Origin: an uncultured Bacteroidales bacterium
GTDB taxonomy: Bacteria > Bacteroidota > Bacteroidia > Bacteroidales > Muribaculaceae
Length of the DNA: 64,000 bases
Assembly (NCBI GenBank): GCA_902782465.1
Contig: CACZNH010000003.1
Location: 124,001 to 188,000, forward strand
Reading direction: 5' to 3'
Shown: piece by piece, positions 7,742-28,767 of the stretch
How positions within the stretch are numbered: the first letter of the stretch is position 1
Layout of the letters: each line of letters begins with the position of its first letter
Program-made: the position numbers and the translations under genes
The notes under the pieces: model-generated
Seen by the model: the letters and a program-made list of their open reading frames with translations, nothing else
Told to the model about the DNA's origin: nothing
The model's database searches: none

Positions 7742-7745
7742 ATGA

Positions 7746-7776
7746 CGACAGCCGCCCCGTGGTTGGGCGGCTGTCG
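7746..7776. terminator. 12-bp perfect hairpin between convergent genes
   Basis: A perfect 12-base inverted repeat (7746-7757 and 7765-7776) with a seven-base loop lies between the MarC-family gene and the minus-strand GHL10-type gene, which converge here. It is GC-rich with only a short T-rich stretch on the plus side (ATTGTTT). Its position suggests a shared terminator for both strands, closing the long minus-strand series of genes. Confidence 0.65.
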
Positions 7777-7802
7777 ATTGTTTGGATGGATGTCAATGAG
7801 CT

Positions 7803-14776: not shown

Positions 14777-14780
14777 TCCT

Positions 14781-15788
14781 TTATTTCTTTATCTTGCGAT
14801 AGATTCCACTTAAAAACTTCCACAAGCCCGGATGCATCATCAATCGATGAATAACGGCCCATTTCTTGCCGTCATAGTTCGCCTCAGGACCGATGCACGG
14901 GAATGGATAGAGGCCCGCCTGACGGATGCGCTGCAACACTTCATCGACGCAGCCGCTGGTCAACGCCTTAGTCATGGAGAAAAACAAGTACACATTTCTC
15001 AATCCAGCGACACTAACGGGTGCCTTGTTGCCCGAACGCGACTCATAACTTCGAATTGTGCTGTCAATCGACACGGCAGAGTCAACCTGGCTGAAAATGC
15101 GCCGTTTCACATGGTCGGCGTCAGGATTGTGCATTGCGCTGTCGCCACGATTCACATAACAATAACCCATAATGCCCTGATGAGCCACCCGGGAGGCCTC
15201 AAGCATAAAACGTGCAATGAAATCGCCGTCCTCACAGGCGATGAGCGATATGTCGAAGCGCAGTTTATTGTCCTCAATCAGACTGCGACGCACGAGGTAA
15301 CGCCACACGTAGGGACTCATGACATGCTCCTGCAAGTAACCGACGCCCGTCGTTACTACCGAGGTGTCATAATTGTCTCGGCTGGTGCCTCCGCCATCGG
15401 TGCCATCGGGCATCACACGAGTGAAATTGAAAACCAGCACATCCAAGTCATCGTCCACAACACGGTCGAGCAATATCGCTGCAGCGCCGTCCTCCAGATA
15501 GTCGTCGCTATCCACAAAGGCGACATAGCGCCCACGGGCCTGGTCCAACGCCAAGTTGCGTGCCGCACTCACACCCGCGTTCGGCTGGCTGAGGAGGCGC
15601 ACCTGCGGATAGTCCCGGGCATACCGCTCTACAATAGCACGACTGCCATCAGTAGAGCCGTCATCCACCACCAGCACCTCGCAGTCGTCGGCAGCAACAG
15701 GCTGGTCAATAATAGACTGCAAACACCTCGGCAGATAAGCCGCGGTGTTGTAAACAGGAACTATATATGTCAGCAACGGTTCACCCAT
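14781..15788 (-). CDS. Glycosyltransferase family 2
   Basis: 335 residues. The GT-A fold signature is complete: TYIVPVYNTAAYLPRCLQSI, VVDDGSTDGS, the AGVSAARN stretch and the DXD-like VDSDDYLEDG. Inverting GT2 enzymes transfer sugars from nucleotide donors to lipid-linked acceptors in the cytoplasm. The ATG at 15788 overlaps the stop of the VOC gene as TGATG; a GTG one codon upstream is possible. Its place among acyl-building genes suggests it handles the sugar that receives the acyl group, or is just part of the same repeat-unit pathway. Confidence 0.92.
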   Translation of the reverse strand: MGEPLLTYIVPVYNTAAYLPRCLQSIIDQPVAADDCEVLVVDDGSTDGSRAIVERYARDYPQVRLLSQPNAGVSAARNLALDQARGRYVAFVDSDDYLEDGAAAILLDRVVDDDLDVLVFNFTRVMPDGTDGGGTSRDNYDTSVVTTGVGYLQEHVMSPYVWRYLVRRSLIEDNKLRFDISLIACEDGDFIARFMLEASRVAHQGIMGYCYVNRGDSAMHNPDADHVKRRIFSQVDSAVSIDSTIRSYESRSGNKAPVSVAGLRNVYLFFSMTKALTSGCVDEVLQRIRQAGLYPFPCIGPEANYDGKKWAVIHRLMMHPGLWKFLSGIYRKIKK

Positions 15789-16189
15789 CACCGCTCTACA
15801 AGTTCAATCAGGCCGGTATGTTTTTGAAACAAGAATGCAATACGCCTGTCTTCCATAGCACAAGCTGGTACTGGTCCGTTGAGCAGCAGAAAACGCTGCT
15901 TGCGCAATCCGGCAATCGCTTTATCGATATCACTCACGCTATAACAGATGTGATAAGGTGCCACGCCGGAGCTGTCCAGTGTGCGAAGCACTGGGCTCTG
16001 TTCATCAAGCGGTGCCAGCAACTCGATGCGCGGCGCACCTTCCTTGTCGAGGAAACAGACCTTGACGTGTTGCAAGCAATCATCCACCACATCGGCTGGA
16101 GTATAGCCCATATTGACGTAAAACTCCATCGTCTTGCCGATATCACGGCAAGCAATACCAATATGATGGAAAACTAATCCCGGAAACAT
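15788..16189 (-). CDS. VOC (glyoxalase/epimerase-like) protein
   Basis: 133 residues from the ATG at 16189; a TTG three codons upstream overlaps the KASIII stop and cannot be excluded. Two beta-alpha-beta-beta-beta units carry FHHIGIACRD at the N-terminus, PYHICYSV in the middle and TGLIELVE at the end, giving the His and Glu metal ligands of the vicinal-oxygen-chelate family. The closest general resemblance is methylmalonyl-CoA epimerase. In this setting it may epimerise or rearrange an ACP- or CoA-bound acyl intermediate made by the adjacent KASIII and FkbH-type enzymes. That role is inference. Confidence 0.87.
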   Translation of the reverse strand: MFPGLVFHHIGIACRDIGKTMEFYVNMGYTPADVVDDCLQHVKVCFLDKEGAPRIELLAPLDEQSPVLRTLDSSGVAPYHICYSVSDIDKAIAGLRKQRFLLLNGPVPACAMEDRRIAFLFQKHTGLIELVER

Positions 16190-16194
16190 AGCAT

Positions 16195-17244
16195 TCAATA
16201 CTCAATGACAGGCGAAACGTGGCAATTACAGGTATGCATCAGAGCGGAGCCCCAACTCAAGCCTGCACCAAAGGCGCTTAGCACCACGGTGTGAGAACCT
16301 TCCAGCTTGCCGTTCAACTCGCTGGAAATGGTCAGAGGCACCGAGGCGCTGCTGGTGTTACCATACTTGCTGATACAGAAAGGCACCTTGTCAGGCTGAA
16401 TCTTCAGCTTCTTGACAAAGAAATCCATCATGAAACGGTTGGCCTGATGGAAAACCAGGAGATCCACATCATCAATGGTCTTGCCTGTTTCAGCCAACAG
16501 CTGTTTCACGCTGCGCGGCACCTTGCTGATGGCAAAATTGAACACATCCATGCCGTCCATGAACACCTCCAAGTCGGTGCGCACATTTCCTTCCTCCCGT
16601 TCACGCTCGACACATGAATCAGGCGTAATCGGATTACGCATCCCGGCGTGAATCTTTATCTTGTCCTCACCAGTGCCGTCTGTATAAAGCAGGAATGTCG
16701 ATTCCCCAAAATCACCTTTCTCGACAAGGGTTGCCGTTCCCGCGTCACCATAGAGGGGCCAATCCACCTTGTCACGGCGGTTGACAATCTTGGAAAACGC
16801 CTCACCGTCAAGCAACAGGACACGGTTTATGCCAGGCAGCGAAGCATAGGCAAACGCGGTGCTCAAGGCGTATAGGTAGCCCGAACATCCCAACGTGATA
16901 TCCATGCACATCGTTTCCCGCGGCAATCCCAAGCGATGCTGCAGCAGGCATGATGTGGCAGGAATACGGAAATCGCCAGTCTGACTCATGAACAGCAGCA
17001 CATCAATGCTGTCGGGGCTAATATCGTTATCCGCCATCAGCTGTTGTGCTGCCTTGAAACACAAGTCACTGGCCATGACATCGGGAGCAGCAATGCGGCG
17101 TTGCTCAATACCGATGTTTTCGATTACCTTATCTATTTCTTCTTCAGGGATTAAATAGCCGAGGTCTCGATTGTAGACAACCTCTTGGGGCACACAGGCA
17201 CTCAGAGCCTTTATTCCCACTCCTTGAAATGTTAACTTGGCCAT
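16195..17244 (-). CDS. Ketoacyl-ACP synthase III (FabH-like), copy 1
   Basis: 349 residues with the complete KASIII triad: Cys120 in LGCSGYLYAL, His266 in FHQANRF and Asn296 in YGNTSSAS. The enzyme family condenses an acyl starter with malonyl-ACP, or transfers an acyl group between thioester and another acceptor. A housekeeping FabH would not sit here, and a second divergent copy lies at 20764, so this is a pathway-specific enzyme. It is 129 bases downstream of a WSS-type ACP gene and ends just before the VOC gene. Likely partners are that ACP and the FkbH-type enzyme. Confidence 0.93.
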   Translation of the reverse strand: MAKLTFQGVGIKALSACVPQEVVYNRDLGYLIPEEEIDKVIENIGIEQRRIAAPDVMASDLCFKAAQQLMADNDISPDSIDVLLFMSQTGDFRIPATSCLLQHRLGLPRETMCMDITLGCSGYLYALSTAFAYASLPGINRVLLLDGEAFSKIVNRRDKVDWPLYGDAGTATLVEKGDFGESTFLLYTDGTGEDKIKIHAGMRNPITPDSCVEREREEGNVRTDLEVFMDGMDVFNFAISKVPRSVKQLLAETGKTIDDVDLLVFHQANRFMMDFFVKKLKIQPDKVPFCISKYGNTSSASVPLTISSELNGKLEGSHTVVLSAFGAGLSWGSALMHTCNCHVSPVIEY

Positions 17245-17373
17245 AATAAATGCAAAAAGAAACCTAAAATAATTTAAGTTTCAGATGACTCTTCTTTATC
17301 AATAAAAAAACGGGGAACAGTCACCTGCCAACTCAATCGAGCTACAGCGGCACACTGTTTGGAGAAACGCAAG

Positions 17374-17619
17374 TTAAAACTCTTCTTCTTCAACTCTCAC
17401 AGCGACAATGTTGAAAAGGTCCTCGACAGTCTGGCTGTCACGGATGTCATCGCCGCGAAACTCAATGTCATATTCCTCGTCGACCATCGCTATCACCGAA
17501 AGTGCGACAAGCGATGACCATTCTTCCAGCTCCTTGAAATGGGTGCCGGCATTTATAGCGTCGGGAGGTGTCTCGTCAAACAGTCCCGCAAAATTCTCTA
17601 TGAATTGCTCTAAATTCAT
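17374..17619 (-). CDS. Acyl carrier protein, WSS variant, copy 1
   Basis: 81 residues. It is ACP-like throughout, but the phosphopantetheine motif is EEWSSLVAL, so Ser36 is preceded by Ser rather than by the near-invariant Asp. The acidic tail ends in EEEEF. It is clearly paralogous to the ACP at 23525: both share ENFA, the FKEL(E/D)EWSSL block and IAMVD(E/D)E. It is the first gene after an internal promoter at 17666-17695 and leads the KASIII - VOC - GT2 - FkbH - ACP series. I infer it carries the acyl chain handled by the KASIII downstream. Confidence 0.92.
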   Translation of the reverse strand: MNLEQFIENFAGLFDETPPDAINAGTHFKELEEWSSLVALSVIAMVDEEYDIEFRGDDIRDSQTVEDLFNIVAVRVEEEEF

Positions 17620-17665
17620 TCTCTTTTACTATAACGCAAAAACTGCGCTATTATTACACGGGGCG

Positions 17666-17695
17666 CAAAATTATATAATTTTTTTTAATTCCAAC
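17666..17695 (-). promoter_or_regulatory. Internal promoter of the ACP-KASIII-FkbH block
   Basis: On the minus strand: GTTG (17692-17695), an 18-base AT-rich spacer, then TAATTTTG (17666-17673), an exact TAnnTTTG -7 element. Transcription would start near 17660, leaving a leader of about 40 bases before the ACP start codon. A terminator for the preceding gene lies just upstream, which supports a real transcription break. Confidence 0.65.
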
Positions 17696-17734
17696 CCCTT
17701 TGCAGTGTATCATATGAAAAATTCATGCTTTTTG

Positions 17735-17742
17735 CCCCCCCC
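17735..17742. repeat. Eight-base C (G) homopolymer tract
   Basis: Eight C on the plus strand, next to six A. On the minus strand this is T6G8 directly after a terminator stem and about 40 bases upstream of the next promoter. Such tracts can change length by slippage; no gene is interrupted. Confidence 0.7.
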
Positions 17743-17789
17743 AAAAAACAGGTATCAGACCTTTCAAATTGATGCCAATTCACCTGTTT
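17743..17789 (-). terminator. Intrinsic terminator after the NeuD-like gene
   Basis: Arms at 17782-17789 and 17746-17753 pair perfectly over eight bases around a 28-base loop. On the minus strand a run of six T follows at once. The hairpin starts at the stop codon of the NeuD-like gene. The large loop lowers confidence a little. Confidence 0.6.
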
Positions 17790-18430
17790 CAATAGTCGAA
17801 TTTAAGGGCCGGCACACCCAGATAGGTGCTGTTATCCTTGGGTTGGGTCATGAGTACACTGTTCGCACCGATCGTAACTTCATTACCGATGGTCATTCCC
17901 TGCAGTACCGCACAGGCAACGCCCAACAGGTTGTTGTCACCGATGGTAATGCCTCCCGACAAGTGAGCCCCAGGCATGATGTCATTGAAGTTACCGATTG
18001 TGTTATCGTGTCCCAAAACAACATGGTCATTGATGAGGTTGAAGTCACCCATTGTCACATCACATGATATCATGCAGTTATTCTGGATGATATTACCCTC
18101 GCCGATTGTGAATGTTTCCGGATCAACAAGAAACAAAGACGGGTCAATCAGGTTGGGGAACGAGATGTTGGGATTGTCTATACTCTCGCGGATGCGGCGG
18201 ACAGCCCTGTTATCATTGATGGCTATTGCCAGTGCCAAGGGCTCGTCAACACTCAACAGCGTTTCCATATCGCCCAGCACTTTACCATATCGTGAAATGT
18301 TAGAATCGGGCCTCTTGCTGTCGTCAAAAAAACCGACCAGTTGCCAGTCGCCTCCATTGCGGTTGATTCTCTCAATGAGGCATGCCACCTCCTTGCCGAA
18401 TCCACCCGCACCATAGATTGCAATATTCAT
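17789..18430 (-). CDS. NeuD/PglD-like sugar acyltransferase, variant active site
   Basis: 213 residues. An N-terminal Rossmann-like PglD domain (IAIYGAGGFGKEV) is followed by left-handed beta-helix hexapeptide repeats. PglD/NeuD enzymes transfer acetyl from acetyl-CoA to the amino group of a UDP-amino sugar, using a His-Glu pair (HEC). Here the equivalent is Gly-His141-Asp142, so Glu is replaced by Asp and the Cys is lost. It is very similar to the second half of the 416-residue fusion at 24631. Because it lies beside an aminotransferase, ACP and KASIII genes, I infer that it uses a longer or modified acyl donor, perhaps ACP-bound. It ends the middle transcription block. Confidence 0.87.
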   Translation of the reverse strand: MNIAIYGAGGFGKEVACLIERINRNGGDWQLVGFFDDSKRPDSNISRYGKVLGDMETLLSVDEPLALAIAINDNRAVRRIRESIDNPNISFPNLIDPSLFLVDPETFTIGEGNIIQNNCMISCDVTMGDFNLINDHVVLGHDNTIGNFNDIMPGAHLSGGITIGDNNLLGVACAVLQGMTIGNEVTIGANSVLMTQPKDNSTYLGVPALKFDY

Positions 18431-18470
18431 ATTATTCCTTGGGTTTTATTAAAAATCATGGCCATTCAAC

Positions 18471-19610
18471 TCATTTGCAGCAAGCAATGATTTCATGTGC
18501 CACACGCTCAACGTCCTCGTCGCTCACCCAGGGTCCACTGGGCAGGCACAGTCCTGTACTGAACAGTTCCTCGCTCACACCGTTGACATAAGCAGGTGCA
18601 CCTGAGAACACAGGCTGGGTGTGCATGGGTTTCCACAACGGACGGGACTCGATATTACAGGTCTCCAAATGACGGCGGATGGTGTCATAGTCAACGCCCG
18701 TCTTGGCGGGATCAATCAGGATGGTATTGAGCCAGTAATTGCTGTCAGAGCGCTCGTCGGCATTGGTATGCACGGTAATGCCATCGACGTTGGCGAACAG
18801 TTCCACATAGCGGTCACACAAGTGCCTGTGATGGGCGAGATGCTCATCCAGGACGGTCATCTGACCACGGCCGATGCCCGCGCAGATGTTGCTCATGCGG
18901 TAATTGTAACCTATTTCCTTGTGCAGATAATAAGGCATGGGCTCGCGAGACTGCGTTGCATAGAACATAACCTTCTTCTTGGCCTCTTCATTGGGACAAA
19001 TGAGCGCCCCACCGCCACTGGTGGTAATCATCTTGTTTCCGTTGAAACTCATGATGCCATAGTCGCCAAACGTGCCGCACAACTGACCGCGGTAACGTGA
19101 CCCGAAGGCCTCGGCCGAATCTTCCACCACCGGAATCTCATATCGGCGAGCGATTTCCATGATGTCATCAATCTTGGCAGGCATACCGTAGAGATATACC
19201 GGAATGATGGCTTTGGGCTTGCGACCCGTCTTGGCTATACGGTCCTTGATGGCATCCTCCAGCAGATTGGGGTCGAGATTCCAAGTGTCGCGTTCGCTAT
19301 CGATGAAAACGGGCACACCGCCCTGATATACAATAGGATTGGCACTTGCCGAGAAGGTCATTGACTGACAAATCACCTCATCACCGCGGCCGACGCCCAG
19401 CATCACCAATGACAGGTGAATGGCTGCAGTTCCGGCACTGAGGGCTACCACGTGCTTGCCCTGTCCGCACAAACGTTCCAGGTCTTCCTCAAAAGCATTG
19501 ACGTTTGGACCCAAGGGCACTACCCAGTTGGTGTCAAAAGCCTCTTGGATGTATTTCATTTCTTGGCCGCTCATGTGAGCGAGACAAAGCAGGATTTTCT
19601 TGTTCTCCAT
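18471..19610 (-). CDS. DegT/DnrJ/EryC1 (PglE-like) sugar aminotransferase
   Basis: 379 residues from the ATG at 19610; an ORF extension upstream lacks support. PLP-dependent nucleotide-sugar aminotransferase: ALSAGTAAIHLSL, VVEDSAEAFGS (161-171), and the PLP lysine Lys193 in MSFNGNKMITTSGGG. The sequence pattern is that of PglE-type enzymes, which aminate a UDP-4-keto-6-deoxy-sugar at C4. It sits beside a PglD-like gene, with PglC-like and PglA-like genes further upstream, as in bacillosamine-type pathways. The 4,6-dehydratase that would make its substrate is not in the window. Confidence 0.92.
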   Translation of the reverse strand: MENKKILLCLAHMSGQEMKYIQEAFDTNWVVPLGPNVNAFEEDLERLCGQGKHVVALSAGTAAIHLSLVMLGVGRGDEVICQSMTFSASANPIVYQGGVPVFIDSERDTWNLDPNLLEDAIKDRIAKTGRKPKAIIPVYLYGMPAKIDDIMEIARRYEIPVVEDSAEAFGSRYRGQLCGTFGDYGIMSFNGNKMITTSGGGALICPNEEAKKKVMFYATQSREPMPYYLHKEIGYNYRMSNICAGIGRGQMTVLDEHLAHHRHLCDRYVELFANVDGITVHTNADERSDSNYWLNTILIDPAKTGVDYDTIRRHLETCNIESRPLWKPMHTQPVFSGAPAYVNGVSEELFSTGLCLPSGPWVSDEDVERVAHEIIACCK

Positions 19611-19646
19611 ATCTAATATTCTGTTTTGTTCAATGAAAACACACAC

Positions 19647-20750
19647 TTACTGCATGTGCAAGTAATAAATTGAGCCTTTGGGAAAGACCTTCTTATATCC
19701 CTGGACTTTACTGCACTGGGCCTGGGTAGCACGTTCCACGACCTCGTCGAGGCAGTCACCAAACATTGGACCAGCCATCATCTGCGGACCCTCGACACTC
19801 GGAGCGAGGTTAAACTCAATGAGCAATGGCTCCCCATCGGGCAGCACGGTCACATCCCATCCCACATAATCGAAGTAAGGCAGGCGCTTGTGCATCTCAA
19901 TCAACGTGTCAATCACGCGCTGGTATTCAGGAATAACCAGATTATCTATGCCAGTCTCCTGCTTGAGGGAGGAAACGGTCATGTTCTTGAAACGGAACAC
20001 CCTGTCATCAACCAAACCGTTCCTGTCGATGAGACATGTGCCGCCGCCTTGAGAGACGTTGTCCTTAATGGCTCCCTTGCCACCAAAACGGAGGTGGGCA
20101 TAGGGATACAGATATTCATAACTACCATCCAGATGGCGGTAGGTGTAAAGACGCATCGAGTTGAGAGAAGTGGGGTTAACCTGCTGCAGTGTAGGATGCT
20201 GACGCACTTTTTCCTGCACGATGAAGTTGTAAGAGTAGTGACGGAACAGCTCCCTAATTGCATCGGCACCAAAGTCCCGGATTTGCTCCACGCCCTCTCC
20301 GTTGCAGGTCTCGACTGTGGGTTTAATCATCAGGTCACCAGTGGCATTCACCACGGCATCGACAGCTTGTTCCATCGTAATCTGTTCACCGTCACGATAA
20401 TACAACCCGTGCATATTCTTTATGATAGCGCGTGGCTGTTTTACCCGTGGGAACAACTCGCTGTAGATATTCTTGTCGAGGTAGGCGTCCTTAAAATCAG
20501 TCCTGTTGAGAGCCGGAATCACAAAGAAGTAATACACGTCCATCGACAGGTAACGGTCGCTGTGGATGCCATTGAGATGCGAAAAGTAGTCATCAAACAT
20601 CATCGACACCTTGAATCCGCGCGACTCAAAATAGGCCGACAGTTCCTTCTTGTGAGCCTTATAGTTGAAGTCTTCAGCCATCACGTGGGACTTGAAATAC
20701 CAATCGCCCCAGAAGAACTCCTTGTTTGTGTTGATATATTGTTGTGCCAT
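19647..20750 (-). CDS. ATP-grasp protein of the sugar-transfer-associated type
   Basis: 367 residues. The region about 100-340 has the ATP-grasp pattern: LMIKPTVETCNGEGVE, FIVQEKVRQHP, SMRLYTYR, GGKGAIKDNVSQGG and VGWDVTVLPDGEPLLIEFNLAPS. It fits the ATP-grasp family often found in polysaccharide loci (ATPgrasp_ST), which probably forms an amide or ester bond between a carboxylate and an amino sugar or amino acid. It lies between the aminotransferase and KASIII genes in the same block. I infer it joins an amino-acid-like or acyl carboxylate to the sugar made here; the substrates are unknown. Confidence 0.85.
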   Translation of the reverse strand: MAQQYINTNKEFFWGDWYFKSHVMAEDFNYKAHKKELSAYFESRGFKVSMMFDDYFSHLNGIHSDRYLSMDVYYFFVIPALNRTDFKDAYLDKNIYSELFPRVKQPRAIIKNMHGLYYRDGEQITMEQAVDAVVNATGDLMIKPTVETCNGEGVEQIRDFGADAIRELFRHYSYNFIVQEKVRQHPTLQQVNPTSLNSMRLYTYRHLDGSYEYLYPYAHLRFGGKGAIKDNVSQGGGTCLIDRNGLVDDRVFRFKNMTVSSLKQETGIDNLVIPEYQRVIDTLIEMHKRLPYFDYVGWDVTVLPDGEPLLIEFNLAPSVEGPQMMAGPMFGDCLDEVVERATQAQCSKVQGYKKVFPKGSIYYLHMQ

Positions 20751-20763
20751 AGGGCTTAAACTC

Positions 20764-21825
20764 TTAGTAAGTTATCACTTCGGGAATTGTCACACCACCG
20801 GCATAGAACTCCATGCTGGCCCATGCCAAGCCCACGCCGAAACCACATGCGATGCAGTGCTTCATGTCGCCTGCCAACTGCTCACGGCAACGCGACACCA
20901 TCGTCAACGGGATTGAAGCGCTGGTGACATTGCCGTATTCCTCGAGACAGTAGGGGGTCTTCTCGGCGGGAATCTTGATGGCTTTGCGTATCTTCTCGTC
21001 TATGAACTTGTTGGCCTGGTGCAGGAGCAGCAAGTCAACAGTCTCGACGTCAATATTGAACGTTGCAATCAATTCCTTGATGGAACGGGGCGGTTGCTTG
21101 ATGGCAAAACCAAACACGTCCATGCCGTTTACAATCATATCCACTCCACGACGGAAACTGCCAGGAGAAACCTCTTTCTCCTCTAGCGACTCGTAAGTGA
21201 CGGGGTTGCGCATACCGCCATAAGGAGCCCACACGGCATCAAATCCGGCACCGTCAACGCCATACATGAAATTCATGGGGCGGGCAAGTTCCGGGTCAAG
21301 CTCAAGTGCTGTTGCCGTTGCCGCGTCACCAAATAGCGGTCTAACAGCAGTATCTCGAGGATTACGGTTGCGGGTATTGGTTTCGGCGGCGACGAGAATG
21401 GCCCGTTTGAACGTGCCATGAGACATGAGCGATGCGACAATGCTCATGCCATAGACCCAGCCCGAACAGCCGAATGGCAGGTCGAACACACAGCAGTCGC
21501 TGCGCAGCTTCAGACGGTCCTGCATGATACATGCCGTCTGCGGGGCAATGTAGTCCCTTGAGGTGCAGACATAGGCAAAGCAGTCCACATCTTGCGGCTC
21601 CCATCCCATTTGCTGGAGGAGACCTTCAACCGCCTTGACCGAGAGGTCTGAAGCCGTGACGCCATCATCCACCTTGTGGTGGCGCTCGATTCCCGTCGAT
21701 GCTATCACTTTCAGCGCCTCACTCTCATCCTTGTAGATGGGCAGCGTGCGGTTATCTTCCACCGTCGCAGGCACACAGGCACTCATGCCTGCAATGCGCA
21801 CGTTGTTGATTGTTAGTTGTGACAT
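20764..21825 (-). CDS. Ketoacyl-ACP synthase III (FabH-like), copy 2
   Basis: 353 residues with Cys120 in FGCSGWVYGM, His269 in LLHQANKF and Asn299 in YGNVTSAS, the intact KASIII triad. It is clearly related to copy 1 but divergent, sharing ASDL, GMRNP and GMDVF blocks. Its start overlaps the end of the acyl ligase gene by 13 bases, so the two are coupled. The likely reaction is condensation of an acyl starter, activated by the ligase and held on an adjacent ACP, with malonyl-ACP to give a beta-ketoacyl-ACP; the SDR at 23867 could reduce this. This order of steps is inference. Confidence 0.93.
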   Translation of the reverse strand: MSQLTINNVRIAGMSACVPATVEDNRTLPIYKDESEALKVIASTGIERHHKVDDGVTASDLSVKAVEGLLQQMGWEPQDVDCFAYVCTSRDYIAPQTACIMQDRLKLRSDCCVFDLPFGCSGWVYGMSIVASLMSHGTFKRAILVAAETNTRNRNPRDTAVRPLFGDAATATALELDPELARPMNFMYGVDGAGFDAVWAPYGGMRNPVTYESLEEKEVSPGSFRRGVDMIVNGMDVFGFAIKQPPRSIKELIATFNIDVETVDLLLLHQANKFIDEKIRKAIKIPAEKTPYCLEEYGNVTSASIPLTMVSRCREQLAGDMKHCIACGFGVGLAWASMEFYAGGVTIPEVITY

Positions 21826-23288
21826 ATATTGTTATTTAATTTCAATCGCTGAATCTTTCCCGATGATGTTCTCGGGATAATATCCACCCATTCCCATACA
21901 ACAGGAATCTCATTGGGAGGGAGTAGTTGCGCCAGTTGGCGCTTAATGGTGTCAAAGTCAAGGTCGCTGTTTCCACGCACAAGATAGGCTTTGGGCACCT
22001 CGCCCAACACGCCGTTGGGGTCAGGTACCGAGGTGCATGCGCAATCGGGAATGCCGAGGCTCTTGATGGCCTCCTCGATGGTCACGGGGCTGACCTTCTC
22101 GCCACCGATGTTGATGAGTTCCTTTTTGCGCCCGGTGAGGTAGAAATCGCCATCGTTGTCACGATGTCCCCAGTCACCAGTGCGGAACCATTCTCCGAAA
22201 AATGCGTCCTTATTGTCCTCAGGCAGGAAATAGGATTTGGTCACCATATTGCCACGCACGCATATCTCGCCATCCACACCATCGGCCACAGGCAGGCCGT
22301 TCTCGTCTCGTACGCATACCTCAACGAGTCGTGAAGCAGGTCGACCGATGGCATTCAGGTTGTCCCTATTCCCATGAAACTCGATGAACAATGCTCGAGA
22401 TGCCTCTGTAAGACCATAATGCATACACAACCGTGTGGTTGGGAACATCTCCATGAGTAGCTCCTTATCCTCTATAGGCAATGCAGCACTTCCTATCTCT
22501 ATATATCGTATTTGTCCGGCAAAACGAGCTATTCGCTTACCGCTCAAGCGCTTGATGTACTGCCACACGGCCGGCACCATGCCGAATCCCGTCACCCCTT
22601 CGTTGTCGATGACATTGAAGAAGGTTTTCAGGTTAGCGAAATTGTTAACCAATACCAGTGTAGCACCCGCAATAAGGACACAACGCAATCGGCCTAAACC
22701 GAATGAATGGCTTAAAGGCAAGGCCAAAGCCTCGACATCGGTGCTGCAGGTTCCGATAAATCCGTTAGTATTACATGCCGAGCCATAGATATTGGCATGA
22801 GAAAGAATCACGCCTTTGGGTGCTCCTGTGGTTCCTGTGGTAAACATCACATCAGCGACGTCGTCACTAGTGATGTGCGGCAATGTCAGAATCCCGACAG
22901 CTGACTCTGGAACGCCATCAAGCGATTCGCAATGCCGACCCTGAATATCAAGTCCATTACCGAACATGACGACAGGATTGGTCACCGAAATGATGTAGTC
23001 GAGCCTCTCGCGTGGCGATGCCGAATCAACCACCACATTCACCACTCCCAACAGGTGGGCCGCCAGATAGAGATAGGCGAATTGTGCCTCCTTTTGTGCC
23101 GAAAGCAAAATACGGTCACCTGGCTTCAGCCCCAAAGACTGCAGATACAGTGCTGCAGCCTCGACGCGTTCGACCAATTGGCCATAGGAAACACGCGATG
23201 TCCCGTCGACAAGGGCAATCTTGTCAGGGGCATCTAGGGCCTTTCCGGCAATGTCACACAGCAGGGGGCTGTGAGGGGCATTAATCAT
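21813..23288 (-). CDS. AMP-dependent acyl-CoA/acyl-ACP synthetase
   Basis: 491 residues of the ANL superfamily. Motifs: P-loop-like FTTGTTGAPKGV (149-160), MHYGLTEASRA in the middle, the hinge region WFRTGDWGHRDNDGDFYLTGRKKE and the C-terminal catalytic Lys in RTSSGKIQRL. It activates a carboxylic acid as acyl-AMP and loads it on CoA or an ACP. It is overlapped by ACP (ATGA at its start) and KASIII (13 bases at its end), so the carrier protein is probably its acceptor. The acid it selects cannot be read from the sequence. Confidence 0.92.
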   Translation of the reverse strand: MINAPHSPLLCDIAGKALDAPDKIALVDGTSRVSYGQLVERVEAAALYLQSLGLKPGDRILLSAQKEAQFAYLYLAAHLLGVVNVVVDSASPRERLDYIISVTNPVVMFGNGLDIQGRHCESLDGVPESAVGILTLPHITSDDVADVMFTTGTTGAPKGVILSHANIYGSACNTNGFIGTCSTDVEALALPLSHSFGLGRLRCVLIAGATLVLVNNFANLKTFFNVIDNEGVTGFGMVPAVWQYIKRLSGKRIARFAGQIRYIEIGSAALPIEDKELLMEMFPTTRLCMHYGLTEASRALFIEFHGNRDNLNAIGRPASRLVEVCVRDENGLPVADGVDGEICVRGNMVTKSYFLPEDNKDAFFGEWFRTGDWGHRDNDGDFYLTGRKKELINIGGEKVSPVTIEEAIKSLGIPDCACTSVPDPNGVLGEVPKAYLVRGNSDLDFDTIKRQLAQLLPPNEIPVVWEWVDIIPRTSSGKIQRLKLNNNICHN

Positions 23289-23515
23289 GACTGGAGTGAT
23301 TTGACCTCCTCGACAATTGACTGTACCGATGTCAAGTCAAACAGGTCTTCGAGCGGGAACTCCACATCAAGTTCCTGCTCAATCGTGCTGATGATGGCAA
23401 GGTTACCCACCGAATCCCATTGGGGTATCTCCCCAGATGACAATTCGTCGGTAATCAGGGCGATGTCCACATTCAGGACTCGTGCTATGATTTCCTTGAC
23501 CTTTGTTTCAATCAT
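23285..23515 (-). CDS. Acyl carrier protein (WDS type)
   Basis: 76 residues. Ser35 in QWDSVGNLA is the phosphopantetheine site, with the normal Asp before it. The N-terminal helix reads VKEIIARVLNVD, as in typical bacterial ACPs. Its stop overlaps the ligase start (ATGA), and the WSS-type ACP stops nine bases before its start, so two different ACPs are made side by side. I infer one presents the starter and the other the extender or finished acyl group. Confidence 0.93.
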   Translation of the reverse strand: MIETKVKEIIARVLNVDIALITDELSSGEIPQWDSVGNLAIISTIEQELDVEFPLEDLFDLTSVQSIVEEVKSLQS

Positions 23516-23524
23516 TGTTGATGA

Positions 23525-23761
23525 TTACTTCTTTTGCTTCTTCACAACGACATTGAACAAATCCTGAATGGTGTCAGAATTCAAAATGTCATTGCCCTTG
23601 ATAATCACGTCACACTCATCATCGACCATCGCGATAATCGACAAAGCAGTGAGGGACGACCACTCGTCAAGTTCCTTGAACTTGGTGTCAGCGGTGAACA
23701 ATGCCTCATCAGTGTCATCAAACTGAGCAGCAAAGTTTTCAATAAATTCCTGAATTTCCAT
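23525..23761 (-). CDS. Acyl carrier protein, WSS variant, copy 2
   Basis: 78 residues from the ATG at 23761, which lies 50 bases after a canonical promoter; the longer frame starting at 23776 is less likely. The site motif is DEWSSLTAL with Ser36, again lacking the usual Asp before Ser. It is the paralogue of the ACP at 17374, and each copy has a KASIII and a GHD-type NeuD-like gene nearby. It leads the middle transcription block. Confidence 0.92.
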   Translation of the reverse strand: MEIQEFIENFAAQFDDTDEALFTADTKFKELDEWSSLTALSIIAMVDDECDVIIKGNDILNSDTIQDLFNVVVKKQKK

Positions 23762-23818
23762 AAAAAAATCTAACAATCAGGTGTGACAAGCAACGTCAAT
23801 AACATCGATTTCAGTTGA

Positions 23819-23849
23819 CAAAAGTACACACATATATTAATTCTGCAAA
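23819..23849 (-). promoter_or_regulatory. Canonical Bacteroidetes promoter for the middle (ACP-ligase-KASIII) block
   Basis: On the minus strand: TTTG (23846-23849), a 19-base spacer and TACTTTTG (23819-23826), matching both the -33 and -7 consensus and the preferred spacing. The leader to the ACP ATG is about 50 bases. This is the best promoter match in the window. Confidence 0.75.
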
Positions 23850-23866
23850 AATAATACCAAAAAACT

Positions 23867-24619
23867 TTATATCGAGAATCCTCCATCGATAACCAAATCA
23901 TGCCCCGTGAGCCAGCTGGAGGCATCACTCAACAGGTACAAGGCTCCGTTGGCGATATCCTCGGGATGACCGTAACGGCCCAGCGGATAACGCTTCGCGT
24001 CCTCGGCCAGTTGCTCCTCGGTAATAGTGCCACGATGGATGAGCGGGGTATCTACCATTCCGGGGCAGATGCTGTTGACGCGGATTTTGCGGGAAGCATA
24101 TTCACGGGCAGCATATTTCATCACCGAATTCAGGGCAGCTTTAGAAGCGCCATACACGCCGTTTCCAGGCATGAAGCTGTGAGTACCTCCAATAGAGGCG
24201 ATAATGACTACCGAGGCCCCTTTTTGCAGCACCTTCTTCTTGTACATCAAGCGCAGGAGCTCTATCGGTGCGAAGAAATTGACTTCGAACATCTCATCAA
24301 ATTTCTCGCGCGTACCGAACTGTAACGGAAGCGTGGTCGAATTGCCTGCACACAACACCGCTCCGTCAAGTGGCGGCAACGATGCCACCAGACGTTCCAA
24401 GTCGTCCTTGACAGTTATGTCAGCAAGGGTCTGCACCTTGGACGGAGCATCGATTTGATTGAAGGTTTCCTGCAACCGTTCTGCATTACGGCCTGTAATC
24501 ACCATGTTTGCACCCATGCGCGCACAGGCTATAGCCGTCGCCTGGCCCAAGCCTGACGATGCGCCGGTTACAAGAATCGTTTTGCCCTCCAGAGAGAAAG
24601 GATTATAATTGGTGTCCAT
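23867..24619 (-). CDS. SDR oxidoreductase, probably beta-ketoacyl-ACP reductase-like
   Basis: 250 residues. Classical short-chain dehydrogenase: cofactor motif TGASSGLG (18-25), catalytic Ser141, Tyr155 and Lys159 (YGASK), and the C-terminal LTGHDLVIDGGFSI typical of FabG-like enzymes. In viosamine-type islands a comparable SDR reduces a KASIII product to a 3-hydroxyacyl-ACP that is then put on an amino sugar; I infer the same task here. It ends the upstream transcription block, 105 bases before the ACP gene with its own promoter, and starts 11 bases after the NeuD-type fusion gene. Reduction of a nucleotide sugar is the alternative. Confidence 0.88.
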   Translation of the reverse strand: MDTNYNPFSLEGKTILVTGASSGLGQATAIACARMGANMVITGRNAERLQETFNQIDAPSKVQTLADITVKDDLERLVASLPPLDGAVLCAGNSTTLPLQFGTREKFDEMFEVNFFAPIELLRLMYKKKVLQKGASVVIIASIGGTHSFMPGNGVYGASKAALNSVMKYAAREYASRKIRVNSICPGMVDTPLIHRGTITEEQLAEDAKRYPLGRYGHPEDIANGALYLLSDASSWLTGHDLVIDGGFSI

Positions 24620-24630
24620 ATCGTTATAAT

Positions 24631-25881
24631 TTAATACTCAAATTTCTTAGCGGGTACACCGATATAGGTGTTACCATTCTTGGGCTTGGTCATCAACACA
24701 CTGCCGGCGCCCAGGGTGATATTGTTGCCCACCTTGATGCGCTGCAGCACCACGCTGTCTACGCCAAACAGGTTGCACTCGCCCACACCTACAGAGCCCG
24801 ACAAGCGCACGCCGGGCATCAGGACGTTAAAGTTGCCCAACTCGACATCATGACCGAGCACATTTGAACCGTTGAGAACATTGAAATCACCCACGGTGAC
24901 ATTACAGGTAACGCTGCAACTGTCCTGAATGATATTGCCTTGACCAATGATGAACGTCTTGGGGTCCAGAACCCTGAATGACGGAGCAATCAGGTTAGGA
25001 TAGTATATGTTCTCGTTGGTGATGCGCTCAAGAATGAGTTTTCGCGTCATCGGGTCACCGACGGCTATGGCAATTGCGAGTGGTTCGTTGACGGAATTCA
25101 GATCATCCATGCCACCCATCACTTTACCATAATGCGAGACGGGAGTGCCCACCTCCTTGTTGTCATCATAAAAGCCGACGAACTCCCAGTTGCCTCTACC
25201 GGCACTGTTAATGCGCTGAATGCCTCCAGCAACCTCACGGCCCAAGCCGCCGGCACCGTAGATGGCAATCCGGTTGGGATAATTTTTCTGATTCTTTTCC
25301 TCGTCTGTTCTGACTCGGCAGGGGTTACCAAATGCCACCACTCTATCGGGGATGTCATCGACGACGACACTGCCGGCACCGATTACCGCCCACTTGCCGA
25401 TTTTCACACCCGGAATCACAACAGCCGCCGCACCAATCCATGCGCCTTCACCAATGTGGACATTACCGCACAGGGTTGCCTGAGGAGAGATGTGCACAAA
25501 ATCTTCAATCGTACACTCATGATCGACCGAGGCACCGGTATTGAGGATGCAATGCCGTCCCACTGCGGCATCACTCTGCACGATAGCTCCCTGCATGACA
25601 ACCGAGCCCTCACCGATTGTTGCATTTGGCGAAACGATTGCCGAGGGATGAATTACCGTACCGAACTCACATTTCAGTTTCTGTACAATCTGCCTGCGAG
25701 TCTCATTGTTTCCGATGCTGACGACAATAGGTGATTCACCATTCCAGTTATGAAAAACTGGGATTGACACCAATTCGTTAATTGACTTGTCGTCATCAAA
25801 CATCCCATCGACCTCAATTCCCGATGCCTTCAGGATGTCAACAATCACTTTAGCGTGTCCGCTTGCTCCGTATAGATACAT
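24631..25881 (-). CDS. Tandem fusion of two PglD/NeuD-type acyltransferases
   Basis: 416 residues, about twice the normal PglD length. The first half (1-190) is a regular PglD-like enzyme with the His121-Glu122 pair in DHECTI. After a short linker (about 191-203), a second complete copy (204-416) begins with IAIYGAGGLGREV. Its active-site position reads GHD (His344-Asp345), as in the stand-alone protein at 17789, which it matches closely to the last residue. I infer two acyl transfers, one acetyl-type and one with a special acyl group, on the same or successive amino sugars. The ATG at 25881 overlaps the PglC-like stop as TGATG, so the two are coupled. Confidence 0.9.
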   Translation of the reverse strand: MYLYGASGHAKVIVDILKASGIEVDGMFDDDKSINELVSIPVFHNWNGESPIVVSIGNNETRRQIVQKLKCEFGTVIHPSAIVSPNATIGEGSVVMQGAIVQSDAAVGRHCILNTGASVDHECTIEDFVHISPQATLCGNVHIGEGAWIGAAAVVIPGVKIGKWAVIGAGSVVVDDIPDRVVAFGNPCRVRTDEEKNQKNYPNRIAIYGAGGLGREVAGGIQRINSAGRGNWEFVGFYDDNKEVGTPVSHYGKVMGGMDDLNSVNEPLAIAIAVGDPMTRKLILERITNENIYYPNLIAPSFRVLDPKTFIIGQGNIIQDSCSVTCNVTVGDFNVLNGSNVLGHDVELGNFNVLMPGVRLSGSVGVGECNLFGVDSVVLQRIKVGNNITLGAGSVLMTKPKNGNTYIGVPAKKFEY

Positions 25882-26495
25882 CAATTATTTCCGTTAAATT
25901 TTTCCATTGTTGCCTGACCGTCTTGGGATATGCCATCACGGGCAAGCACTTTCTTTATCGTTGTAAATATCACTTGACAGTCTGTAAGAAATGAGCAGTG
26001 GTCAACATACCACACGTCTAGACTGAATTTCTCGCTCCAGGACAAGGTGTTGCGCCCGTGGCACTGTGCCCAACCTGTGATGCCGGGACGCACCTCGTGA
26101 CGCCGGGCCTGTTCAGGCGAATACAGTGGCAGATAATCGACGAGCAATGGACGGGGACCTATCAATGCCATGTCCCCCTTGAGCACATTAAACAACTGCG
26201 GCAACTCATCAATGCTTGTGGAACGCACAAAACGCCCCACACGTGTCAGCCGCTGCTCATCAGACAACAGTTTGCCGTCGGCATCGCGCTCATCGGTCAT
26301 TGTCTTGTACTTGACAATCTTAAAAATCTTGCCATTCTTGCCTGGCCGTTCTTGGAAGAAGAACGCACCAGCACCCTTATTGGCATAATGTAGCCAGATA
26401 GTCACCACCAGGAACAGCGGCGACAAACATATTATTGCAACGAGAGAGAGCACGAAGCCCAACACCCGCTTGATACAATCACGATAAATCTTCAT
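25881..26495 (-). CDS. PglC-like initiating sugar-phosphate transferase
   Basis: 204 residues. Small monotopic phosphoglycosyl transferase: a membrane-inserted N-terminal helix (about 10-35), FFFQERPGKNGKIFKIVKYKTM written in the usual order, the catalytic Asp96-Glu97 in SIDELPQ, and GDMALIGPRPLL then RPGITGWAQ. It transfers a sugar phosphate from a UDP-sugar to undecaprenyl phosphate and thereby starts the repeat unit. With PglE-like, PglD-like and PglA-like genes close by, the first sugar is probably a 4-acylamino-6-deoxy (bacillosamine-type) sugar. It is coupled to the NeuD-type fusion gene. Confidence 0.93.
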   Translation of the reverse strand: MKIYRDCIKRVLGFVLSLVAIICLSPLFLVVTIWLHYANKGAGAFFFQERPGKNGKIFKIVKYKTMTDERDADGKLLSDEQRLTRVGRFVRSTSIDELPQLFNVLKGDMALIGPRPLLVDYLPLYSPEQARRHEVRPGITGWAQCHGRNTLSWSEKFSLDVWYVDHCSFLTDCQVIFTTIKKVLARDGISQDGQATMEKFNGNN

Positions 26496-26509: not shown

Positions 26510-26545
26510 CTTGCGACGGTCACTTCTCTTGCGACGGTCACTTCT
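26510..26545. repeat. Tandem 18-bp duplication at the end of an acyltransferase gene
   Basis: Two identical 18-base units (26510-26527 and 26528-26545) span the stop codon of the acyltransferase-3 gene and the spacer to the PglC-like gene. The unit is a multiple of three, but the stop codon lies within the first unit read on the minus strand, so the second is not translated. Confidence 0.85.
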
Positions 26546-27578
26546 TGGAAAAAGCGCCGTGCATCAACGCCAAAACCTTCTTGTAAAACTTGCCATACAA
26601 ATAAGCCGCCAACACGCACACCAAGAAATAAGCACACACCGACAGGAAGATATACAACAGGTTCCCGTTCATATAATCCAACTTCCAATGCAACCAAATG
26701 TCACGAATAACTGGATGACACACATACAAGAATGCAGATATTGTTCCCAAGAAGACTAAAACCTTTTTCGTTAAATGCCTCTTAATCGATATAAAGAATA
26801 GCACCGCTATAGTTGTACTGAAATACCATGCGTACTCGTTGACGCTTGCAAACAACAGCAGAGCAAGAAAAGCTATTGAGCAATAGACATTCTCGATGCG
26901 TCTAAACCACTGCGGGTGCTGAGCGGCATACATTCCCAGCGAGAAGTCCAAGAGCCACCCGATGCAATGCTGGTTCAATGAATGAACCAGTTTGTCGCTA
27001 TAAAAGTAGAATGAGCATGTCACCACCAGCGAGATGAGACACAACCATTTGGCCGGAATGCGACGCAGGATTAAGGCATACAGGATATAAAACTCAAAGG
27101 CAACCCTAAGATACCAAAAAGCGGCAGGATGAATCTCGTTTTTTTCAAAAAAACTATTCAGAAACGTCAATTGACCTAACACCTGGAGAAGCGATTTCCC
27201 TTCATCTACTTCTAAATTTCCAATTATGATAAAAGGGCATGCCAACAGAAGCAGTTTCAAGTAATGGTCCTTGATAAACGAGAACATGCTCGGCATTGTT
27301 TTGCCATATTTTTCGCTTAGGCCATAACCACTCAAAAAGAAAAAGATCGGTACTCCCATCCACCCCAAATAGGAAATCGGCCCAAGTATCAGATGCCCCA
27401 GGACATTGTTAATGAAAAAATCAGCTTTCGAGGGATCAAACCATGCTTCGTTTTCCGCAAATGGGATAACATTATGCGCAAGGTTATGTAGCACAATCAG
27501 CGTTATGCAGAGGCCTCTCAACCCCAGATTCTCTTTCTTGGAGATAACGTTATCAGTGGTCACTGGTGAATGGGCCAT
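26538..27578 (-). CDS. Acyltransferase 3 family membrane protein
   Basis: 346 residues from the ATG at 27578; the longer frame to 27746 would run into the neighbouring gene and adds non-membrane sequence. The start region KKENLGLRGLCITLIVLHN is followed by about ten membrane spans and LGWMGVPIFFFLSGYGLSEKY, the family hallmark. It probably O-acylates a sugar of the growing polysaccharide. An 18-bp tandem repeat covers its stop codon. It is 43 bases from the GT4 gene upstream and 42 bases from the PglC-like gene downstream. Confidence 0.88.
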   Translation of the reverse strand: MAHSPVTTDNVISKKENLGLRGLCITLIVLHNLAHNVIPFAENEAWFDPSKADFFINNVLGHLILGPISYLGWMGVPIFFFLSGYGLSEKYGKTMPSMFSFIKDHYLKLLLLACPFIIIGNLEVDEGKSLLQVLGQLTFLNSFFEKNEIHPAAFWYLRVAFEFYILYALILRRIPAKWLCLISLVVTCSFYFYSDKLVHSLNQHCIGWLLDFSLGMYAAQHPQWFRRIENVYCSIAFLALLLFASVNEYAWYFSTTIAVLFFISIKRHLTKKVLVFLGTISAFLYVCHPVIRDIWLHWKLDYMNGNLLYIFLSVCAYFLVCVLAAYLYGKFYKKVLALMHGAFSKK

Positions 27579-27621
27579 TCTCTTCCCTCGTATCAGTTCA
27601 TTAATGAAACCAACTATCCTT

Positions 27622-28767
27622 TCAGCCGAGGATTTCGTCGTAGAAGTCGTACAGGCACTGGCGCACGTAACCCTGCTCGAAGCGTGAGGCGATGAGTGGA
27701 CGGGCATTTGCAGCCATCGCAGCAACATCGTCGGGATGCTCAACAAAGCGTTTCATCGCCAGGTAAAGGGCCTCTTCATCCTTTGAGGGAATGATGACAC
27801 CGTTCTCACCCTCAATGATGATTTCACGCGAGCCGTTGATGTCGGTGACAATGCTCGGCAAGCCCATCGCTCCGGCCTCGATAACCACATTCGGAAAACC
27901 CTCGCGATAACTCGGGAACACCAGCGCATCAGCCGCGGCATAGAAAGGCCTTACATCATGCTGGCCTCCAACAGCCTCGATACCGTCACCCAATTCGATA
28001 CGACTTCGCGTCACTTGTGACACAGGATCCAGGTTGTCTTCTCGCGGGCCAACCAGCACTAGGTGTGTGTCGGGGTGCTCACGATGCAGGCGGTCGAAGG
28101 CTGCGACCAGCTCGTTAATGCCCTTGTCGCGCACGATACGGCCAACGAACACAAACGTGAAGCCCTCGTGAGCCGGGACCTCAATAGCCGCAGGATCAAA
28201 AATGCTCATGTCAATGCCCTTCACGTTACCGTAACCCAGCACCTTGAGGGGCTTGCGGGTGATGTGATGGTTGAGCAGGTCGCTCTTCACTCCCTCGCCC
28301 TCAGGGATGATGTGGGTCGCACAGGCACAGGTAATCCGGTCTGTCGTCATCAGGACCCGACGCTTGAAACCCGTTGACGTGGGCCACACCAGGCCCGTGA
28401 ATGTGTGGACACGGCGCGGCACTCCCGCCAGCCATCCTGCCACCATTGTCATCAGCCCGGCCTTGGGAGTCATCGAGTGAACCAAGTCGGGACGTTCCTG
28501 ACGCAGAGCGCGATACATCCGCCAGAGCGACTTCAAGTCACTCACGAGCGAGATGTGCCGTTCCATGGGCACAGCGATGGTGCGGATGCCTTCGGCACGA
28601 CCATACTCCTCCAATTCACTCATCCCCTGCCCCTCTGAGCCGGATTTTGTGTTGGGCGACGATATTGCCATACACTCAAAGCCCTCTTGCTTCAAGTGCT
28701 CGAAGATGCCGCTGCAAAACGACTTCAACGACGTCGGCACCGTCGTAGTCCTTATAATTTTCGTCAT
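27622..28767 (-). CDS. Glycosyltransferase family 4 (PglA-like)
   Basis: 381 residues, GT-B fold. The C-terminal half has FVFVGRIVRDKGINEL, VGPRED, YAAADALVFPSYREGFPNVVIEAGA and SREIIIEGENG, the GT4 donor site with the E-x7-E pattern. The N-terminal half reads DLVHSMTPKAGLM and VHTFTGLVWP. It resembles retaining GT4 enzymes such as PglA that add the second sugar onto an undecaprenyl-linked bacillosamine-type sugar, which fits its place upstream of the PglC-like gene. The donor sugar is unknown. Confidence 0.92.
   Translation of the reverse strand: MTKIIRTTTVPTSLKSFCSGIFEHLKQEGFECMAISSPNTKSGSEGQGMSELEEYGRAEGIRTIAVPMERHISLVSDLKSLWRMYRALRQERPDLVHSMTPKAGLMTMVAGWLAGVPRRVHTFTGLVWPTSTGFKRRVLMTTDRITCACATHIIPEGEGVKSDLLNHHITRKPLKVLGYGNVKGIDMSIFDPAAIEVPAHEGFTFVFVGRIVRDKGINELVAAFDRLHREHPDTHLVLVGPREDNLDPVSQVTRSRIELGDGIEAVGGQHDVRPFYAAADALVFPSYREGFPNVVIEAGAMGLPSIVTDINGSREIIIEGENGVIIPSKDEEALYLAMKRFVEHPDDVAAMAANARPLIASRFEQGYVRQCLYDFYDEILG

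Follow-up and report, generated by a model that had tools for sequence, protein, structure and literature searches.

A double acyl-building set in a run of polysaccharide genes

The window analyzed here is a stretch of 64,000 nucleotides from an uncultured Bacteroidales bacterium of the family Muribaculaceae (assembly GCA_902782465.1, contig CACZNH010000003.1, positions 124,001 to 188,000). A long run of polysaccharide genes on its minus strand contains two sets of genes for building acyl groups on carrier proteins, each with a KASIII-type ketoacyl synthase (KAS1 and KAS2), a WSS-type carrier protein (wACP1 and wACP2) and a PglD/NeuD-like transferase (GHD1 and GHD2). Gene content points to a surface-polysaccharide locus, of which this would be the N-acyl (R-group) section, and the substrates and products named for it below are predictions. 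The original prediction had listed, between 16195 and 25881, two KASIII genes with intact triads, two WSS carriers, two GHD genes, one short-chain dehydrogenase/reductase (SDR), an acyl ligase and an ordinary acyl carrier protein (ACP). This inventory was confirmed in full, each gene being an open frame on the minus strand at the coordinates given below. However, the extent of the set had been drawn too narrowly, as the FkbH-type gene (13184), its ACP (12963) and the VOC gene (15788), the likely starter part of set A, were left out, and the DegT (18471) and ATP-grasp (19647) genes were within its span but were given no role.

What we call set A includes KAS1 (16195 to 17244), wACP1 (17374 to 17619) and GHD1 (17789 to 18430; NeuD profile TIGR03570, 161.6 bits, cut-off 160.8). 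The conserved run continues below 16195, with all genes on the same strand. The VOC protein (15788 to 16198) is related to methylmalonyl-CoA epimerase but does not belong to that family (62.8 bits across the full TIGR03081 profile, cut-off 114.95), as solved relatives also indicate, and is followed by a family 2 glycosyltransferase recognized by Pfam (14781 to 15791). Next come an FkbH-type HAD-IIIC protein (13184 to 14776; TIGR01686, 273.9 bits, cut-off 146.65; nearest solved chain BF1531, 3slr) and ACPf, an ordinary WDS carrier protein of 12963 to 13187 that has no Pfam match and accompanies FkbH in 25/25 genus loci. Thus, the FkbH, ACPf and VOC part spans 12963 to 16198. A membrane acyltransferase (Acyl_transf_3, 79.9 bits, 11892 to 12932) is the last gene of the conserved run and was seen in 22/25 genus loci.

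Set B includes KAS2 (20764 to 21825), the AMP-forming acyl ligase LIG (21813 to 23288; PF00501, 227.8 bits), ACPn, the ordinary WDS carrier protein adjoining it (23285 to 23515; PF00550, 32.5 bits), and wACP2 (23525 to 23761, where ATG 23761 is a likelier start than TTG 23776). The carrier proteins thus number four, a WSS pair and a pair of the ordinary WDS type, of which one adjoins the ligase and the other FkbH. The SDR (23867 to 24619; PF13561, 185.6 bits) is probably a 3-ketoacyl-ACP reductase common to both sets. GHD2 (24631 to 25275) is the C-terminal half of a fused protein (368.4 bits to TIGR03570 as a whole) whose N-terminal half, 25276 to 25881, is an ordinary NeuD/PglD domain. Upstream is a PglC-type initiating sugar-phosphate transferase (25881 to 26495; PF02397, 204.7 bits). 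Between the halves of the double set sit the sugar-transfer-associated ATP-grasp protein AGST (19647 to 20750; PF14397) and a DegT aminotransferase of the PglE/LegC type (18471 to 19646, with a likely ATG start at 19610), which probably makes a 4-amino sugar nucleotide; besides its Pfam match it scored 364.2 bits to the LegC profile TIGR04181, below the cut-off of 420. The whole genome gave three strong DegT matches, this copy included, and one long dehydratase match (398 bits, a frame of 652 aa) that we take for PglF-like.

Conservation of the double set within the genus

We surveyed 101 genomes (the window's own and 100 relatives) with the GHD1 protein as query, at an E value of 1e-20 or better. 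The query matched in 38 of them, and 26, all belonging to the window's genus, have both the GHD1 and the GHD2 types (on two contigs in the case of G002). Gene order was then compared in 25 genus loci (L numbers denote compared loci and G numbers genomes), namely those of 24 of the 26 double genomes, i.e., without the window and G002, and that of G032, which has one GHD. Apart from losses, the order is kept as PglC-GHD2-SDR-wACP2-ACPn-LIG-KAS2-AGST-DegT-GHD1-wACP1-KAS1-VOC-GT2-FkbH-ACPf. At least two KAS, two wACP and two GHD are present in 23/25 loci, 22 of them with exactly two of each; the other, L055, has one extra ACP and two extra KAS. In this locus (G031), a further KAS-ACP-KAS trio lies upstream of the double set (L055:181-2519). 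In L056 (G043), with one KAS, one wACP and two GHD, the contiguous block wACP2, ACPn, LIG, KAS2 and AGST is absent and the rest is kept. The medians of the ratio of nonsynonymous to synonymous substitution rates for 14 genes (Nei-Gojobori, distant pairs, only those where it could be computed) range from 0.034 to 0.102. Since the order is conserved and the ratios are low, the double set is under purifying selection and old within the genus. Comparison of gene order across related genomes, proposed with the original prediction as a check, came out in favor of a conserved double set. The two halves are not always together, as in L062, of the same genus, where PglC-GHD-wACP-SDR-KAS2-SDR is followed by 1.8 kb without an assigned gene and then by ACP-LIG (705 bits for the ligase), about 2.6 kb after KAS2.

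KASIII enzymes and their predicted starters

Both KAS1 and KAS2 have the Pfam domains ACP_syn_III and ACP_syn_III_C and keep the Cys/His/Asn triad (C112/H244/N274 of Escherichia coli FabH, with the FabH sequence of a K-12 record as reference), which places them in KASIII (FabH superfamily). With 213.5 and 154.1 bits to the NCBIfam fabH profile, below its cut-off of 292.1, they are not FabH proper. The genome (94.76% complete) has three matches to the KASIII C-terminal domain at an E value of 0.001, i.e., KAS1, KAS2 and a FabH on another contig. Domains and triad are thus common with E. coli FabH, but FabH residues W32 and R36 are missing in the alignment from 22/22 intact locus KAS, the divergent second KAS of L116 (a 23rd row, without the triad) being left out of this count, and are present in the genome's own FabH. 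W32 of FabH presumably stacks on the adenine of coenzyme A (CoA). In PqsD, R36 and R151 are part of the CoA/ACP-binding belt, according to the available part of PMC3734052. Given this belt and the absence of W32 and R36, it is plausible that the locus KAS would take a carrier-bound starter.

A quick tree of the KAS (7 of the 25 double loci, several long branches flagged) put KAS1 and KAS2 in different old clades. The KAS nearest to an FkbH gene, separated from it by VOC alone or by VOC plus a glycosyltransferase, formed one clade (12/12 rows, SH-aLRT 99) that includes the Flavobacterium locus L124, with the order PglC-GHD-wACP-KAS1-VOC-FkbH-ACPf-SDR-DegT. In a forward test of this link, a profile of the KAS1 clade was run against 344 genomes of the order and matched in 54. 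From the upper part of the match list we inspected 20 loci, leaving out places sampled earlier and passing over G080. The top scorer outside the window (582 bits; L215 in G863, of another family) has KAS1-VOC-FkbH-ACPf in the same order, with a KAS2-type gene interrupted by a stop, and FkbH was found in none of the other 19 loci, which scored 425 bits or less and include several short pieces.

The FkbH protein can be classed as a putative glyceryl-ACP synthase, with its domain above the cut-off and ACPf adjoining. In tetronate pathways, FkbH-like proteins load glyceryl from 1,3-bisphosphoglycerate onto an ACP, and FabH-like enzymes use the glyceryl-ACP, as described in the accessible sections of PMC7489565 and PMC12144888. 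From this precedent and the tie between the KAS1 clade and FkbH, we infer that glyceryl-ACPf would be the starter of KAS1, ACPf being the likely glyceryl carrier and FkbH the protein that probably loads it. Methylmalonyl-CoA epimerase inverts the alpha carbon of a thioester, and the VOC protein may similarly be an epimerase in this locus, possibly acting on the alpha carbon of an acyl thioester. Two loci of the same genus, L065 (10563 region) and L066 (9721 region), have GHD-VOC-FkbH-ACPf and no KAS gene, which makes a possible N-glyceroyl system.

GHD transferases and carrier proteins

GHD1 and the fused GHD2 protein fall within the NeuD/PglD family by the scores given above. They have in common with the PglD/NeuD N-acetyltransferases (TIGR03570; solved relatives 4m98, 3bss and 7txp) a PglD_N domain, hexapeptide repeats and the catalytic His, which is kept in 125/125 aligned NeuD and GHD rows. 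The difference lies in a second His, in the FVHISP stretch, that was found in 16/16 NeuD halves and in 0/51 GHD of the double loci. Among GHD outside the double loci it was absent from all 29 that score at least 140 bits, and 6 of the 29 with weaker scores have it. In PglD itself, this second His would touch the acetyl donor. His 125 of PglD is a conserved residue of the UDP-sugar site in the part of PMC8040287 available to us. For the GHD we predict acyl-ACP as the donor. However, GHD-family proteins also stand beside PglC or DegT with no KAS or wACP nearby (L095-L103), so this loss need not mean an ACP donor, and the use of GHD as proof of such a donor was dropped.

In a tree that covers 9 of the 25 double loci, GHD1 (SH-aLRT 100) and GHD2 (99) each form a clade of their own, and the two clades unite within the genus at an SH-aLRT of 93, under the 95 mark. 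Seventeen fixed differences separate them, three of which (132, 135 and 137) are just before catalytic His 141. They look like the result of a duplication within the genus. As the KAS1 and KAS2 clades are old and different, whereas GHD1 and GHD2 join inside the genus, the duplication seems to have given the two KAS their own copies of GHD and wACP, genes of which the compact loci L059-L061 have one each. GHD2 also varies in its N-terminal partner, which is NeuD in 15/25 genus loci and a longer part in nine, with one protein cut by a contig end. In 4/4 of these nine that were scanned (L036, L044, L049 and L058), the longer part is a PylC-like/ATP-grasp protein, to which L049 adds a HAD domain. 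This swap between an acetyltransferase and a likely ATP-dependent ligase is another sign of variable N-acyl chemistry.

Against a family profile that includes both of them, wACP1 and wACP2 scored 129.7 and 129.4 bits, and the next match in the genome, an ordinary ACP, scored 21.3. By Pfam, wACP1 is recognized as PP-binding (21.6 bits) and wACP2 falls below the threshold. A tree of this family, built on few columns, was poorly resolved, with two wACP1 rows and one foreign row on unexpected sides. The residue before the Ser in 107 profile matches (L034-L133) was S in 60, D in 34, N in five, G in two and C in one, with the motif unmatched in five. WSS was therefore ruled out as a family mark, since this residue varies and many of the farther matches are ordinary WDS carrier proteins. 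Two Flavobacterium genomes have an internal TAA within the wACP match (G121:C11:113916-114131 and G556:C41:32270-32488).

Relatives outside the genus

With a profile of 13 wACP rows (E value 1e-10), matches were found in 26/395 genomes of the phylum, the window's included, and in 42/299 Flavobacterium genomes. We picked 45 loci by their ACP, that is, all 25 phylum loci other than the window and those of 20 of 40 further Flavobacterium genomes. A KAS lies within 6 kb in all 45, an SDR in 39 and a GHD above 75 bits in 33; 20 have at least two KAS and none has two GHD. Adding nine loci chosen earlier for their GHD or KAS, the set of 54 has KAS in 54, SDR in 48, GHD in 39, at least two KAS in 24 and two GHD in none. 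The co-occurrence of these families, on which the original prediction relied, is thus borne out, but the numbers of KAS and GHD genes are not tied to each other, because 21/54 loci combine at least two KAS with exactly one GHD (in two of these, L116 and L117, the second KAS is weak and divergent, with 113 and 85 bits). L125 and L127 (Flavobacterium haoranii type) have the order PglC-KAS-ACP-KAS-SDR-GHD-...-DegT, and L128 and L130 share it apart from a single unmatched gap of about 1.1 kb.

A Flavobacterium set, that of L074, has a Rieske/ring-hydroxylating oxygenase gene (7721-8800) between a KAS2-type gene and the SDR, the product of which may hydroxylate the acyl chain. Unmatched gaps of similar size are found in L078, L120, L128, L130 and L215.

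Comparison with known systems

The closest described system is that of Flavobacterium psychrophilum, where the authors assigned wfpC and wfpE (different 3-ketoacyl-ACP synthases), wfpD (ACP), wfpF (reductase) and wfpG (PglD homologue) to the formation of a 3,5-dihydroxyhexanoyl group on Qui2NAc4N; in the available text of that report (PMC6519341) the structure of the group is determined by nuclear magnetic resonance (NMR), the gene assignment is a prediction by the authors and wfpB is a PglC homologue. Together with wfpB, pglE and pglF, the wfpC-G genes have in common with the window two KAS, an ACP, a reductase, a PglD homologue, PglC and PglE in one locus, so that by its KASIII, ACP, SDR and PglD-like acyltransferase with PglC- and PglE-type genes the window matches an R-group system of the wfpC-G kind in gene content. 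The wfp acyl group sits on the 4-amino of a Qui2NAc4N-type sugar, and acylation of a 4-amino sugar is also what we predict for the window. However, wfp has one ACP and one acyltransferase, and the window has both in duplicate and adds two loading ACPs, a ligase, FkbH and VOC. The comparison is one of gene order and families, made in other Flavobacterium genomes; the 80 best of the 230 relatives in a contig scan, for which a KAS of L127 was the query, included other species of Flavobacterium and no F. psychrophilum.

That a two-KAS set in a sugar locus, with an NMR-determined product, had already been described is the main correction to the original prediction, whose remark that it knew of no described system with this doubled set was too strong. 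A two-KAS set with a single ACP and acyltransferase is known, and the one found here is an enlarged variant of it and not wholly new. Among the best-ranked papers in searches of the open-access literature, a scope with most subscription papers outside it, we found neither a double set nor a glyceryl-primed KASIII in a glycan locus.

Set A also resembles the glycerate operon of tetronates, such as tetromadurin (mad7, mad8 and mad16), that according to the accessible portion of PMC7489565 has an FkbH-like protein, a stand-alone ACP and a FabH-like enzyme proposed for glyceryl-ACP. In contrast, the window is a sugar locus with VOC, wACP, SDR and GHD and has no type I polyketide synthase in the run. 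The likeness covers FkbH, ACP and KASIII, three of the families of an operon whose five genes include an Agg4/Agg5-type acyltransferase/dehydratase pair. The viosamine island of Pseudomonas syringae, the analogy drawn in the original prediction, likewise gives a modified 4-amino sugar from one gene island, a comparison made by description alone and from part of the source (PMC3927599).

A tentative model with two assembly lines, and its alternatives

In the model that we favor, the DegT aminotransferase, together with a PglF-like dehydratase from another part of the genome, would make a 4-amino sugar nucleotide, probably UDP-QuiNAc4N, for the amine of which two short type II assembly lines would each build one acyl group. 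In set A, FkbH would load glyceryl on ACPf, VOC may invert the glyceryl alpha carbon, KAS1 would condense glyceryl with malonyl on wACP1, the SDR would reduce the ketone and GHD1 would transfer the predicted 3,4,5-trihydroxypentanoyl group to the amine. In set B, LIG would probably load a free acid on ACPn for condensation by KAS2 with malonyl carried by wACP2; reduction would again be by the SDR, and GHD2 would transfer this second acyl group. PglC would then put the acylated sugar phosphate on the lipid carrier. All substrates, the carrier-bound starters, the sharing of the SDR, the pairing of GHD with KAS and both products are deduced from gene families and neighborhoods. We consider the chances even that there are two parallel lines whose starters differ, KAS1 using glyceryl-ACP and KAS2 an acid loaded by the ligase. 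The complete model, with two mini-lines that each have their own loading carrier, carrier-primed KASIII, WSS carrier and PglD-derived transferase and that yield two polyhydroxyacyl groups, one of them glycerate primed, on amino sugars of one glycan, is a tentative proposal with fewer chances for it than against it. Two acyl products are plausible because each half stands alone elsewhere, KAS1 with FkbH, VOC and ACP in L124 and KAS2 with ligase and ACP in L062; to this extent the two different acyl groups of the original prediction hold up, and the two KAS with one product of F. psychrophilum leave this part of it in doubt.

Several observations weigh against this model. The run has a single SDR and a single DegT. 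L056 retains both GHD, with GHD2 still open, despite missing the KAS2 block, and L058 (G032) has two KAS, two wACP and one GHD, having no GHD1; together with the 21 loci of several KAS and one GHD, they contradict the strict pairing of one KAS, one ACP and one GHD originally proposed. In L059-L061, which belong to the same genus, a KAS1-FkbH type and a KAS2 type are neighbors, accompanied by a single wACP and a single GHD; the two types are also together in L215, there with one wACP and with no GHD seen before the contig end. Only four fixed differences separate wACP1 from wACP2. As to the carrier-bound starters, the loss of W32 and R36 is alignment evidence; R36 is replaced by K in 6/22 KAS rows, R151 is retained in 8/22, and in some rows a Trp precedes position 32 by four residues. 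Regarding the FkbH link, the label "KAS less than 3 kb from FkbH" covers 15 rows and requires two changes along the tree, because the second, farther KAS of L059-L061 is also within this distance but is placed elsewhere. In L092, an FkbH lies 4.9 kb from a KAS that belongs to another clade. Finally, glyceryl could reach the sugar unextended, as L065 and L066 have no KAS.

The most serious alternative is that there is one acyl chain, on which the two KAS work in series, each extension being followed by a reduction, with a longer polyhydroxy acid comparable to 3,5-dihydroxyhexanoyl as the product; the second wACP and GHD would then be extra capacity, or GHD2 would place the same acyl group on another amine. 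The single product of the two-KAS wfp set suggests KAS in series, wfp-like orders recur in L125 and L127 and, with the gap, in L128 and L130, and one GHD is enough in the 21 loci with at least two KAS, in L059-L061 and in L058. Nevertheless, each half is also found alone (L124, L062), the GHD copies remain distinct at their 17 fixed positions, the loading ACPs of the two sets are separate (FkbH-ACPf and LIG-ACPn), and in L056 the whole KAS2 part is absent with the rest still open. We consider this serial arrangement somewhat unlikely. A different explanation, suggested by the sets without KAS in L065 and L066, would make set A a system of glyceryl transfer, KAS1 acting as an acyltransferase and not as a condensing enzyme, with short groups such as N-glyceroyl and little or no chain building. 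Against this, both KAS1 and KAS2 have kept the triad that decarboxylative condensation typically uses, and an SDR is present in 48/54 wACP loci, which leaves it improbable. It could also be argued that the product of the double set is a lipid or a secreted small molecule and that the placement of these genes in a polysaccharide locus is accidental, given that metabolite clusters too contain KASIII, ACP, ligase and SDR genes, an example being the celluxanthene locus with two KASIII, an ACP and an AMP-dependent synthetase (accessible part of PMC12144888), and that 15/54 wACP loci have no PglC or DegT in the counted span. But the genes are interleaved with DegT in 25/25 genus loci, PglC is upstream in 24 (L046 ends at the contig edge) and both GHD are of the PglD/NeuD family, so that this seems very improbable.

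Strains of F. psychrophilum with different R-group genes differ in lipopolysaccharide antigenicity, according to the available text of PMC6519341. Unusual N-acyl groups help to set the serotype of surface polysaccharides. If the model of two lines is true, the gene content of a locus (FkbH-VOC-ACP versus ligase-ACP) would predict the acid, and the link between KAS1 and FkbH would offer a glycerate-primed KASIII in glycan chemistry. The conservation of the locus in about two dozen species of one genus makes this directly testable.

Other features of the locus

An open frame between AGST (the SDR in L056) and DegT is present in 25/25 genus loci (L034:10463-11056). A THxHxDH stretch was seen in the displayed sequence of 21 of them, and two copies that were scanned have the metallo-beta-lactamase fold (PF00753), so that it could be an editing thioesterase. 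The L034 frame had no match in the window, where no such frame lies between 18471 and 20750.

Upstream of PglC, the listed frame of an acyltransferase gene (26538-27746) overlaps the next gene (27622-28767) owing to a far TTG start, and its true start is probably at a lower coordinate. Farther along, between 33955 and 44086, there are LicD-family genes (39214 and 43157), a cytidylyltransferase-oxidoreductase fusion (33955) and a transaminase (37204) that resembles PhnW but scores below the cut-off; together they suggest that the same glycan is decorated with phosphonate or a phosphocholine-like group. On the plus strand, a leucine-rich-repeat protein of 1513 aa (53927-58468) adjoins the polysaccharide run.

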